Positions 37,285 to 39,525 of a stretch of 39,525 nucleotides of DNA are shown here, piece after piece; position 1 is the first letter of the stretch; the number at the start of each line of letters is the position of its first letter. The notes under the pieces are model-generated. The model was not told the DNA's origin. It did not search any database and saw only the letters and a list, made by a program, of their open reading frames with translations. This DNA is from a bacterium (GTDB lineage: Bacteria > Chloroflexota > Chloroflexia > Chloroflexales > Kallotenuaceae): NCBI GenBank assembly GCA_016781505.1, contig JADDQF010000035.1:1-39525 (forward strand). Reading direction: 5' to 3'. Made by a program: the position numbers and the translations under genes.

Positions 37285-37313
37285 TTGCAGGACCGAGTTT
37301 TCATCTTTATAAT
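37285..37313 (+). promoter_or_regulatory. Sigma70 promoter of the riboswitch-ECF operon
   Basis: TTGCAG, 17 bases, then a consensus TATAAT at 37308-37313. The predicted start near 37320 lies exactly at the beginning of the riboswitch, which makes the pair convincing. Confidence 0.8.
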
Positions 37314-37320
37314 GAGCGAA

Positions 37321-37406
37321 GACGTTTGGGCAACTGTGGCGAAAGCTACAGCACGCAAAGCTATGGGTCTACGGCTTGATCGAGCTATGATTGCCAAGCC
37401 GCCGTC
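37321..37406 (+). ncRNA. GEMM-I (cyclic di-GMP-I) riboswitch aptamer
   Basis: It carries the conserved landmarks in order. GGGCAA is followed by P2 (CTGTGGC, a GAAA tetraloop, GCTACAG; seven pairs, one of them G-U). Next comes the invariant CACGCAAAGC joining region (37352-37361), then P3 from GGGTCT (37365-37370) to GATTGCC (37389-37395), with an apical GGCT/AGCT hairpin. Closing P1 uses GACG at 37321 and CGTC at 37403. The run GGG keeps G at the position that is A in cGAMP-preferring variants, favouring c-di-GMP. The intercalating A of ACGC is present. No fold was computed. It lies in the leader of an ECF sigma gene. Confidence 0.85.
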
Positions 37407-37432
37407 ACATGAGCGGTAGCTTGGCATTTTTC
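37392..37432 (+). terminator. Intrinsic terminator overlapping the riboswitch 3' strand
   Basis: TGCCAAGC (37392-37399) pairs with GCTTGGCA (37419-37426), with extra CGC/GCG pairs inside a small bulge, followed by five T. Its left arm is the 3' strand of the aptamer (P3/P1), so terminator and ligand-bound aptamer exclude each other. Confidence 0.8.
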
Positions 37433-37716
37433 TTGCATAAGCTATCCCCGGTTTGGCCAAGGTTGGTTGCTTGAATGTATCCCCTGTTTCGGCAACCTTC
37501 GCTGCGGATCTAACCTCGTTCATGTTAAAGCCAGTTGTTTGGCAGTTTTTTGGCTGGCTTGCAACTGTCCACTTGCACTTGTTTGCAATTTTTCCAAGGC
37601 GCTGCTGCCGTAGGCGTATCTTTTTGTTCGGTCCCGCGTTTTAATTGTCACAGGGGATCGAACAATTTGTTATATGCGTATGCGGAGGACGTTGCGCGAG
37701 GCTAGGAGTGCGTCCC
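37433..37716 (+). other. Leader between the riboswitch terminator and the ECF sigma gene
   Basis: A 284-bp stretch with no gene. It has several T-runs and weak repeats (AAGGTTG at 37459-37465 and its complement at 37493-37499; AAGCCAG and CTGGCTT near 37527-37556). No second promoter with acceptable spacing was found, so the ECF gene probably depends on read-through from the riboswitch. Confidence 0.5.
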
Positions 37717-38304
37717 ATGCCCAGCTCTATCGATCTTCCATCGGCCATCGCACGTGCGCGTGAGGGACAGGCTCAGGCAATACGTGAGTTGTACGATGTG
37801 TATTCCGATCCCGTGCGTCGGTATTGTTACGTCCGGCTTGGCGATAGCGAGTCGGCACAAGACTGTGTACAAGAAGTATTTGTTTGCATCTGGAAAGGTG
37901 TCAAGAACTTCGAGTACCGCGGGGATTTGTCGTTCACTGCGTGGTTATATACCATCGCGAACAACGTACTCGTCAGCTACGTGCGCAAACGCCGGCGGGT
38001 ACAACAGGTGCCGCTCACCCCGGAGCTCAACTTAACCGATCCGCGTAGCCATGACTCGGCCCGGAACATTTGTGATCGGCTGGCGTTACGCGACGCGATC
38101 AGTCAGTTGACGACGGAGCAACAGCAGGTTATAACTCTCAAGTTCTTTGTGGGCTTGTCCAACCTAGAGATTGCCGAAATCGTGGGCCGCAGCGAAGGCG
38201 CTGTCAAGGCGCTGCAACATCGTGCGATCAACCGATTGCAGCATATTCTTTCGAACGAATGCGCCAGTCTATTCGCCGACTTCAGTGTGGGAGAGATGGC
38301 GTAA
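37717..38304 (+). CDS. ECF-type RNA polymerase sigma factor
   Basis: 195 residues. Region 2 (about 20-95) has IRELYDVYSDPVRRYCYVRL, DCVQEVFVCIWKGVKNFEY, FTAWLYTIANNVLVSYVRKR; region 4 (about 130-180) has LTTEQQQVITLKFFVGLSNL followed by EIAEIVGRSEGAVKALQHRA. Sigma factors of this type recruit RNA polymerase to stress or envelope promoters. Start ATG 37717 has AGGAG eight bases upstream; the more upstream in-frame ATG at 37645 lacks one. The following gene encodes a membrane protein likely to be its regulator. Upstream are the c-di-GMP riboswitch and terminator, so its level should follow c-di-GMP. Confidence 0.92.
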   Translation: MPSSIDLPSAIARAREGQAQAIRELYDVYSDPVRRYCYVRLGDSESAQDCVQEVFVCIWKGVKNFEYRGDLSFTAWLYTIANNVLVSYVRKRRRVQQVPLTPELNLTDPRSHDSARNICDRLALRDAISQLTTEQQQVITLKFFVGLSNLEIAEIVGRSEGAVKALQHRAINRLQHILSNECASLFADFSVGEMA

Positions 38305-38337: not shown

Positions 38338-39525
38338 GTGTCTAAGTTGTCCTTTACAGAAGCATTAGATCAGGCACTTGAACTGCTTGAACAAGGCCAT
38401 CCTCTCGAATATTGTGTTCAGCAATTCCCGGAATATGCTGACGAGCTCCGTCCGTTGTTGATGGTCAGTGCGGACCTTCATTCCCTGGCGGATCTGTCAT
38501 TCCCATCATTCGATAAAGCCACGATCGAGCCCGATTGGGAATCGATCCTGGCTCAAACACCACAACAGCCGCACCGCCGTTTCCGCACGTATGGCTTGGG
38601 GCTGGGCCAGCTTTTCCATAGCCTGCAATATCATCCTGTGCAGCGCTATGCCTCCCTTGCCGCGGCGATCATCATTTTGTGCATGGTTACGTGGCGCGGC
38701 ACAACCCATAGCGCCGCCGACAGCATGCTCTACCCGCTTAAGCGCAGCGTGGAGCAAGTCGAGTTTGTCGCGGCGCAAGATCCGGCGGATCGCGTCAGCC
38801 TCCATATTCAATTTGCCCACCGTCGGCTTAACGAATTGCGAACCCTTGCCTATCAAGAGCAGCGGATCGACCCGCCACTTGTGAACGAGCTGATCGAACA
38901 AACACGCAGCGCGATCGAGCAAGCTAAGCAAGGCGGCGTTAACCAGGCGGTGGTGTATGAACAGCTTGATGCCCTTTTGTCTGAAACAGATGCCTCGCTG
39001 GATCATCTGAAGCAACTCGGCATGGCTGTGCCAGCCGAGGATGTTGCCGTGCTCGACACTGCCGCTGCAACTGTGGATCTGCTACGTGATGATCTGACAA
39101 CGACGGTCGAGCCCGTCGGTGCAGCGCCGACGTCAACATCAGAAGCGGTAGCCGACGCAGGCACAGCCTCGTCGCCGACCGTACCCACGGCCACGCCGGT
39201 TGAAAGTGGAACGTCACAAGCTCCCACACCACAAGATGCAGGCAGCGATACAACGGGCACCGAGCAGACCGGCGCTGACGGTCAATTGGCACCAGTAACG
39301 CCAACGGCTACCGCCACTCCGGCTGGTCCATCGGCTACGGCTGTGCCAACCACACAACCCGCAGCACCGGCAGCGCCGGCAGCAACTGTGGCGCCCGTGG
39401 CGACCATTGCTGCTCCCACAGCGGCACCGACTACGCAACCAACTGCTGCGCCCGCCACGGTGCCGACGTCAGTGCCGTCGCCCGAGCCGACTGCCGAGCC
39501 AACTCCTGAGCCCACTGCCGAGCCA
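38338..39525 (+). CDS. Membrane DUF5667 protein, putative anti-sigma partner (3' end beyond window)
   Basis: At least 396 residues, running off the window. It starts at GTG 38338 with GAGGA about seven bases upstream, 33 bases after the ECF stop. An N-terminal cytoplasmic part (1-103) with an acidic FTEALDQALELLEQG region precedes one transmembrane helix (about 104-119). A DUF5667 domain follows outside (about 128-225, beginning LYPLKRSVEQVEFVAAQDPA and HRRLNELRTLAYQ). After that comes a long Pro/Thr/Ala-rich tail with PTATP and EPTPEPTAEP repeats that could span the wall. This ECF-plus-membrane-DUF5667 pairing is common in Actinobacteria and Chloroflexota; an anti-sigma role is inferred from position. 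No zinc HxxxCxxC motif is seen. Confidence 0.8.
   Translation, partial: MSKLSFTEALDQALELLEQGHPLEYCVQQFPEYADELRPLLMVSADLHSLADLSFPSFDKATIEPDWESILAQTPQQPHRRFRTYGLGLGQLFHSLQYHPVQRYASLAAAIIILCMVTWRGTTHSAADSMLYPLKRSVEQVEFVAAQDPADRVSLHIQFAHRRLNELRTLAYQEQRIDPPLVNELIEQTRSAIEQAKQGGVNQAVVYEQLDALLSETDASLDHLKQLGMAVPAEDVAVLDTAAATVDLLRDDLTTTVEPVGAAPTSTSEAVADAGTASSPTVPTATPVESGTSQAPTPQDAGSDTTGTEQTGADGQLAPVTPTATATPAGPSATAVPTTQPAAPAAPAATVAPVATIAAPTAAPTTQPTAAPATVPTSVPSPEPTAEPTPEPTAEP

Follow-up and report, generated by a model that had tools for sequence, protein, structure and literature searches.

The leader of an ECF sigma factor gene from a genus of uncultured Chloroflexota bacteria is, judged by its sequence, a genuine c-di-GMP-I riboswitch, and we consider it reasonably probable that this c-di-GMP ON riboswitch primes a self-amplifying BldN-like sigma factor for surface proteins that is restrained by a DUF5667 protein. 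The window is the whole stretch of DNA analyzed (39,525 nucleotides, contig JADDQF010000035.1); its genome is designated G000 and the other three of the genus G001, G002, and G003, together the four congeners. The features of the window are as follows.

37285 to 37313, + strand: P1, a sigma-70-type promoter (TTGCAG-17-TATAAT), from the sequence, with its spacing kept in the congeners
37319 to 37406, + strand: c-di-GMP-I (GEMM-I) riboswitch aptamer, from an RF01051 match and compensatory pair changes
37392 to 37434, + strand: intrinsic terminator/expression platform, from folding; stem 37392-37399 with 37419-37426, then TTTTTCTT
37479 to 37487, + strand: ATCCCCTGT, left half of a conserved inverted repeat, its halves co-changing in the congeners
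37615 to 37641, + strand: P2, a predicted BldN-type ECF promoter (CGTATC-N16-CGTTT), from conservation and a match to the BldN consensus
37650 to 37658, + strand: ACAGGGGAT, right half of the inverted repeat, co-changing with the left, at the expected P2 start site
37704 to 37708, + strand: AGGAG, Shine-Dalgarno sequence of the sigma gene, from the sequence and conserved in five orthologues
37717 to 38304, + strand: ECF sigma factor gene, BldN-like, 195 aa, from Pfam, NCBIfam, and structure matches
38338 to 39525, + strand: gene of a DUF5667 (PF18915) single-pass membrane protein, candidate anti-sigma factor, running past the window end

The GEMM-I aptamer of the original prediction was borne out by a search with Rfam model RF01051, which matched 37319-37406 on the + strand at full length (model positions 1-87 of 87) with 58.1 bits and an E value of 5.5e-9, the gathering threshold being 35 bits. 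No other Rfam family reached its gathering threshold in the window, and a sub-threshold microRNA model lying over the terminator hairpin (21 bits, cut-off 53) was taken as chance. Across the four congeners, the aptamer pairs 37336-37349, 37360-37399, 37362-37397, and 37376-37383 each carry changes at both bases but still pair, the second and third of these falling in the terminator-competing helix. The GAAA tetraloop is invariant in the same genomes, as are 65% of the aptamer positions versus 15% of those in the spacer 3' of it. The aptamer model starts 6 bases past the -10 box of P1, a perfect TATAAT (37308-37313) situated 17 bp from TTGCAG (37285-37290). A consensus promoter had been claimed at this site, and the -10 box agrees with that description, but it was overstated for the -35 box, which is weak and has 3 of the 6 consensus bases. 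P1 is absent from the list that a promoter scanner returned for the window; TTGC-N19-TATAAT is kept in all four congeners.

The claim of an overlapping intrinsic terminator also held. Folding gave a terminator with its stem at 37392-37426, a T-tract at 37427-37434, and about -20.6 kcal/mol, the 5' arm of which reuses the 3' strand of the aptamer; the common bases, 37394-37399, pair with 37360-37366 in the aptamer and with 37419-37424 in the terminator. The minimum-energy fold of the whole leader contains the terminator (-42.3 kcal/mol, versus -31.1 kcal/mol with the aptamer enforced). A separate anti-terminator was looked for in the leader and not found. Because the aptamer and terminator folds are mutually exclusive and no separate anti-terminator was seen, ligand binding should prevent termination, and this anatomy makes an ON switch acting by transcription termination the most likely form of the riboswitch. 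Seven core pairs of the terminator are possible in 4/4 congeners, where the terminator follows the changes in the aptamer through G-U pairs. The terminator is strong in G000 and G002. G003 and G001 have weak hairpins (-10.2 and -12.9 kcal/mol, respectively) with interrupted U-tracts (CUAUUUCUU, CUAAUUCUU), which makes termination doubtful in these two; the strength of riboswitch control probably differs between species of the genus. A second terminator-like hairpin at 37530-37543 was set aside, as it is not conserved in the congeners.

The downstream genes were correctly predicted to be an ECF sigma gene and a membrane partner. The sigma gene starts with the ATG at 37717 and stops at 38304, and its product (Pfam domains Sigma70_r2 and r4_2; PF04542, PF08281, and PF07638) contains only sigma-70 regions 2 and 4 in about 200 aa, as is the criterion for an ECF sigma factor. 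The best NCBIfam model was TIGR02952, the BldN family; its score of 146.6 bits is below the curated cut-off of 206.45, and we therefore term the protein BldN-like only; the original prediction had not recognized this link to BldN. The best solved structural relative was 6dxo (BldN), which we take to be the S. venezuelae BldN-RsbN structure. The partner gene has a likely GTG start at 38338 and a frame that ends at about contig position 39831, ∼300 bases beyond the window. PF18915 matched its product with 45.5 bits (cut-off 27), and one hydrophobic segment, read by eye, precedes the DUF5667 domain. Nearly every close sigma orthologue of the order has an adjacent partner in which a short N-terminal part and one hydrophobic segment accompany a DUF5667-like region. 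BldN-like ECF genes followed by DUF5667-like genes were seen across the whole order (L030-L055). In a PDB search, neither the partner nor a 12-sequence profile matched an RsbN chain, and the sole match under 0.01, HEM_3.C9, is apparently a designed protein; by sequence and profile, there is thus no sign that the partner is homologous to RsbN. No mention of DUF5667 was found in the literature searched. From its position and topology, the DUF5667 protein is a candidate anti-sigma factor. The wiring had been described as acting by RNA rather than by an anti-sigma factor alone. Since the DUF5667 partner accompanies the sigma factor throughout the order, which the original prediction did not note, an anti-sigma factor probably still contributes to the control; the riboswitch is an extra layer upon a pre-existing sigma/partner system and not a replacement for it.

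The arrangement of P1, aptamer, terminator arm, P2, sigma gene, and DUF5667 gene is common to 4/4 genomes of the genus, and its recurrence in G001, G002, and G003 excludes chance. The closest sigma orthologues in these three genomes are 88, 80, and 79% identical, and the same aptamer, sought upstream of the orthologous genes as had been suggested, was present before each; G003 has no GEMM-I besides this one. The end of mutS lies upstream of the sigma gene in 5/5 genomes of the family having this sigma factor, including G005 of another genus, which encodes the same gene pair (sigma 73% identical) without an aptamer. A search for a degenerate aptamer in G005, and upstream of the genus's sigma paralogues, found none. 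As G005 has the gene pair but not the aptamer, the riboswitch was either gained in the window's genus or lost in that of G005.

GEMM-I aptamers were found in 90 of 400 sampled Chloroflexota genomes (31 of 158 for the class). The downstream DNA was examined for ∼108 sites outside the genus, although it was shortened by contig ends at some of them; one site (G422) directly precedes an ECF gene and ∼107 do not, which rules out widespread GEMM-to-ECF wiring in the phylum. At another locus (L209), an ECF gene is located on the other side of the GEMM-I, on the opposite strand. G422 belongs to another class of Chloroflexota; its BldN-like ECF gene (31% identical) has its ATG ∼97 nt after the aptamer and no adjoining DUF5667 gene. 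The predicted fold of this GEMM-I (L255, 1501-1592) puts an AAGGAG ribosome site in a hairpin. On these sequences, the GEMM-I-to-ECF link appears to be rare and to have arisen at least twice, unless G422 represents an ancient state.

Seven further GEMM-I aptamers occur in the window's genome, preceding mostly secreted enzymes or surface proteins (a subtilase, GHL15 hydrolases, and a TSP3-repeat protein). They share the aptamer family with the sigma-linked site but differ in that their targets are not regulators and that the ribosome site is near the end of some of them. Thus, the GEMM-I aptamers at L022 4365-4450 and L023 1775-1849 end ∼20 bases before the start codons of two related GHL15-type secreted hydrolases, a distance that suggests translational control. 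Tandem GEMM-I aptamers were noted at L021 (922-1006 and 1099-1183) and L024 (1939-2017 and 2114-2208), the targets being a secreted TSP3-repeat protein and the subtilase; G002 also has a tandem GEMM-I before a similar TSP3-type protein.

P2 lies 102 bp before the sigma ATG, downstream of the terminator. The motif CGTAWC-N16/17-CGTTT is found 101 to 107 bp before the ATG in 5/5 family orthologues (the four congeners and G005), and its single match in the window compares with 0.03 expected. The published promoter consensus of Streptomyces BldN is CGTAAC-N16-CGTTGA (PMC2375139), which P2 matches in layout. P2 is probably an autoregulated promoter that is independent of the riboswitch, and we infer autoregulation of the sigma factor through it; because it lies past the terminator, this promoter probably bypasses the riboswitch. 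Its conservation in the four congeners and in the riboswitch-less G005 leads us to predict transcripts that start below 37432. The original prediction had the riboswitch gating the operon. A switch does stand between a housekeeping-type promoter and the ECF operon, but with P2 downstream of it the gating is partial.

The inverted repeat ATCCCCTGT/ACAGGGGAT, with halves ∼160 bases apart, occupies the terminator-to-sigma interval, and both halves have changed together in G003 and G001. The repeat may form a long-range RNA helix or serve as a protein site. A putative motif for protein binding around AGGGGATCGA was considered and dropped, as the matches elsewhere in the genomes resemble coding background.

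For the putative regulon of the sigma factor, a tight BldN-type motif gave 12 matches in six genomes versus 2 for the reversed control. A loose pattern was not enriched in G000 (8 matches versus 23 for the control), and the regulon is therefore unproven. Several of the motif sites precede a phytase with carbohydrate-binding modules and other proteins with secreted-like starts, a hint that the sigma output consists of secreted or surface proteins. The BldN-type motif was also seen upstream of similar membrane-anchored proteins with an 'FFG' segment (L090 365, L098 381 on the - strand, and L100 391; G000, G003, and G002); the G000 protein had no Pfam match.

We hypothesize a riboswitch-primed, self-amplifying sigma circuit. 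Binding of c-di-GMP would stabilize the aptamer and thereby withhold its 3' strand from the 5' arm of the terminator, RNA polymerase would read through from P1 into the sigma gene, and the read-through would supply a c-di-GMP-dependent pulse of the BldN-like ECF sigma factor. This factor would recognize its own promoter, P2, past the terminator and so amplify its own synthesis, the co-encoded membrane DUF5667 protein, a probable anti-sigma factor, would restrain it, and the output would be a limited number of secreted or surface proteins. More tentatively, the riboswitch may be the ignition of this anti-sigma-restrained system, making it a threshold, possibly bistable, switch for a surface-protein program.

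Three other readings bear on the ligand, the direction of control, and the weight of the riboswitch. Position 37329 of the aptamer, which we take to correspond to the ligand-contacting G20 of Vc2, is G, whereas cGAMP variants have A there, and the remaining core fits the consensus. This G favors c-di-GMP over cGAMP as the ligand, and binding of c-di-GMP by the leader RNA is what we infer. Eight GGDEF proteins over the Pfam cut-off are encoded in the genome, so c-di-GMP is plausibly made. Given these GGDEF proteins and this core, a different cyclic dinucleotide, such as 3',3'-cGAMP (GEMM-Ib), is very improbable as the ligand, even though GEMM-I variants for cGAMP exist (PMC7266159). An OFF switch or another platform, in which c-di-GMP promotes termination as at C. 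difficile flgB (Cd1) or translation is controlled, has the precedent of OFF c-di-GMP-I switches over a sigma gene (PMC6366702) and is compatible with the weak terminators of G003 and G001. We regard it as unlikely: the terminator arm (37393-37399) is inside the aptamer helix 37360-37366/37394-37399, which makes the bound fold and the terminator mutually exclusive, the search for a separate anti-terminator came up empty, and the ribosome site is ∼270 nt downstream of the terminator.

The riboswitch might instead yield mainly a short attenuated P1 RNA, with the sigma operon driven in practice by P2 only and the c-di-GMP link marginal. Retention of P2 in G005 and the poor conservation of the spacer between the riboswitch and P2 modules speak for this, but four species, one of them with no GEMM-I elsewhere, have retained the aptamer and terminator arm beside the sigma gene, and no other downstream gene is available. 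We judge this reading a little less probable still than an OFF switch, while granting that P2 may make the riboswitch quantitatively minor. An ON riboswitch that primes the sigma gene is the reading that we retain.

In the literature searched, outside of which most subscription papers fall, no report of an ECF sigma gene under a c-di-GMP riboswitch was found, in line with the novelty originally proposed. The riboswitch class, the mechanism, and the control of a sigma gene are already known; what appears to be new is an ECF sigma gene as the target. We know of no ECF-type second promoter at the Cd1/flgB locus of C. difficile. There, a GEMM-I riboswitch controls sigD within the flgB operon (PMC6366702), sharing with the window the aptamer class, transcription termination, and the use of c-di-GMP to control a sigma factor along with its regulon; it differs as an OFF switch and in having a flagellar sigma gene inside a long operon, whereas the ECF gene of the window is the first gene. 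In Streptomyces, BldD-(c-di-GMP) represses bldN (PMC4151990, PMC4255298), which is likewise c-di-GMP control of a BldN-type ECF sigma factor with an adjacent anti-sigma gene and surface-protein targets; the control there is negative and exerted by a protein repressor on DNA, whereas in the window it is exerted by riboswitch RNA and is predicted to be positive. The BldN-RsbN pair of 6dxo, the closest solved sigma factor, resembles that of the window in promoter layout (CGTAAC-N16-CGTT) and in its adjacent partner gene, but the sigma factor of the window is below the BldN cut-off and its partner is a DUF5667 protein with no RsbN match. The S. venezuelae BldN-RsbN structure paper is cited in PMC7406223.

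The finding adds an ECF sigma factor to the outputs of c-di-GMP riboswitches, so that a second messenger would reach a sigma regulon by RNA, and the two-promoter circuit, riboswitch-primed and self-amplified, lends itself to reporter tests that need no culture of the organism. If the model is true, c-di-GMP control of BldN-type sigma factors would have arisen separately, and with opposite sign, in Actinomycetota, as the BldD repressor, and in Chloroflexota, as a riboswitch (at least twice, with G422). This suggests that BldN-type sigma factors recur as a point of entry for c-di-GMP across distant phyla, reached through different molecules and possibly with opposite sign.
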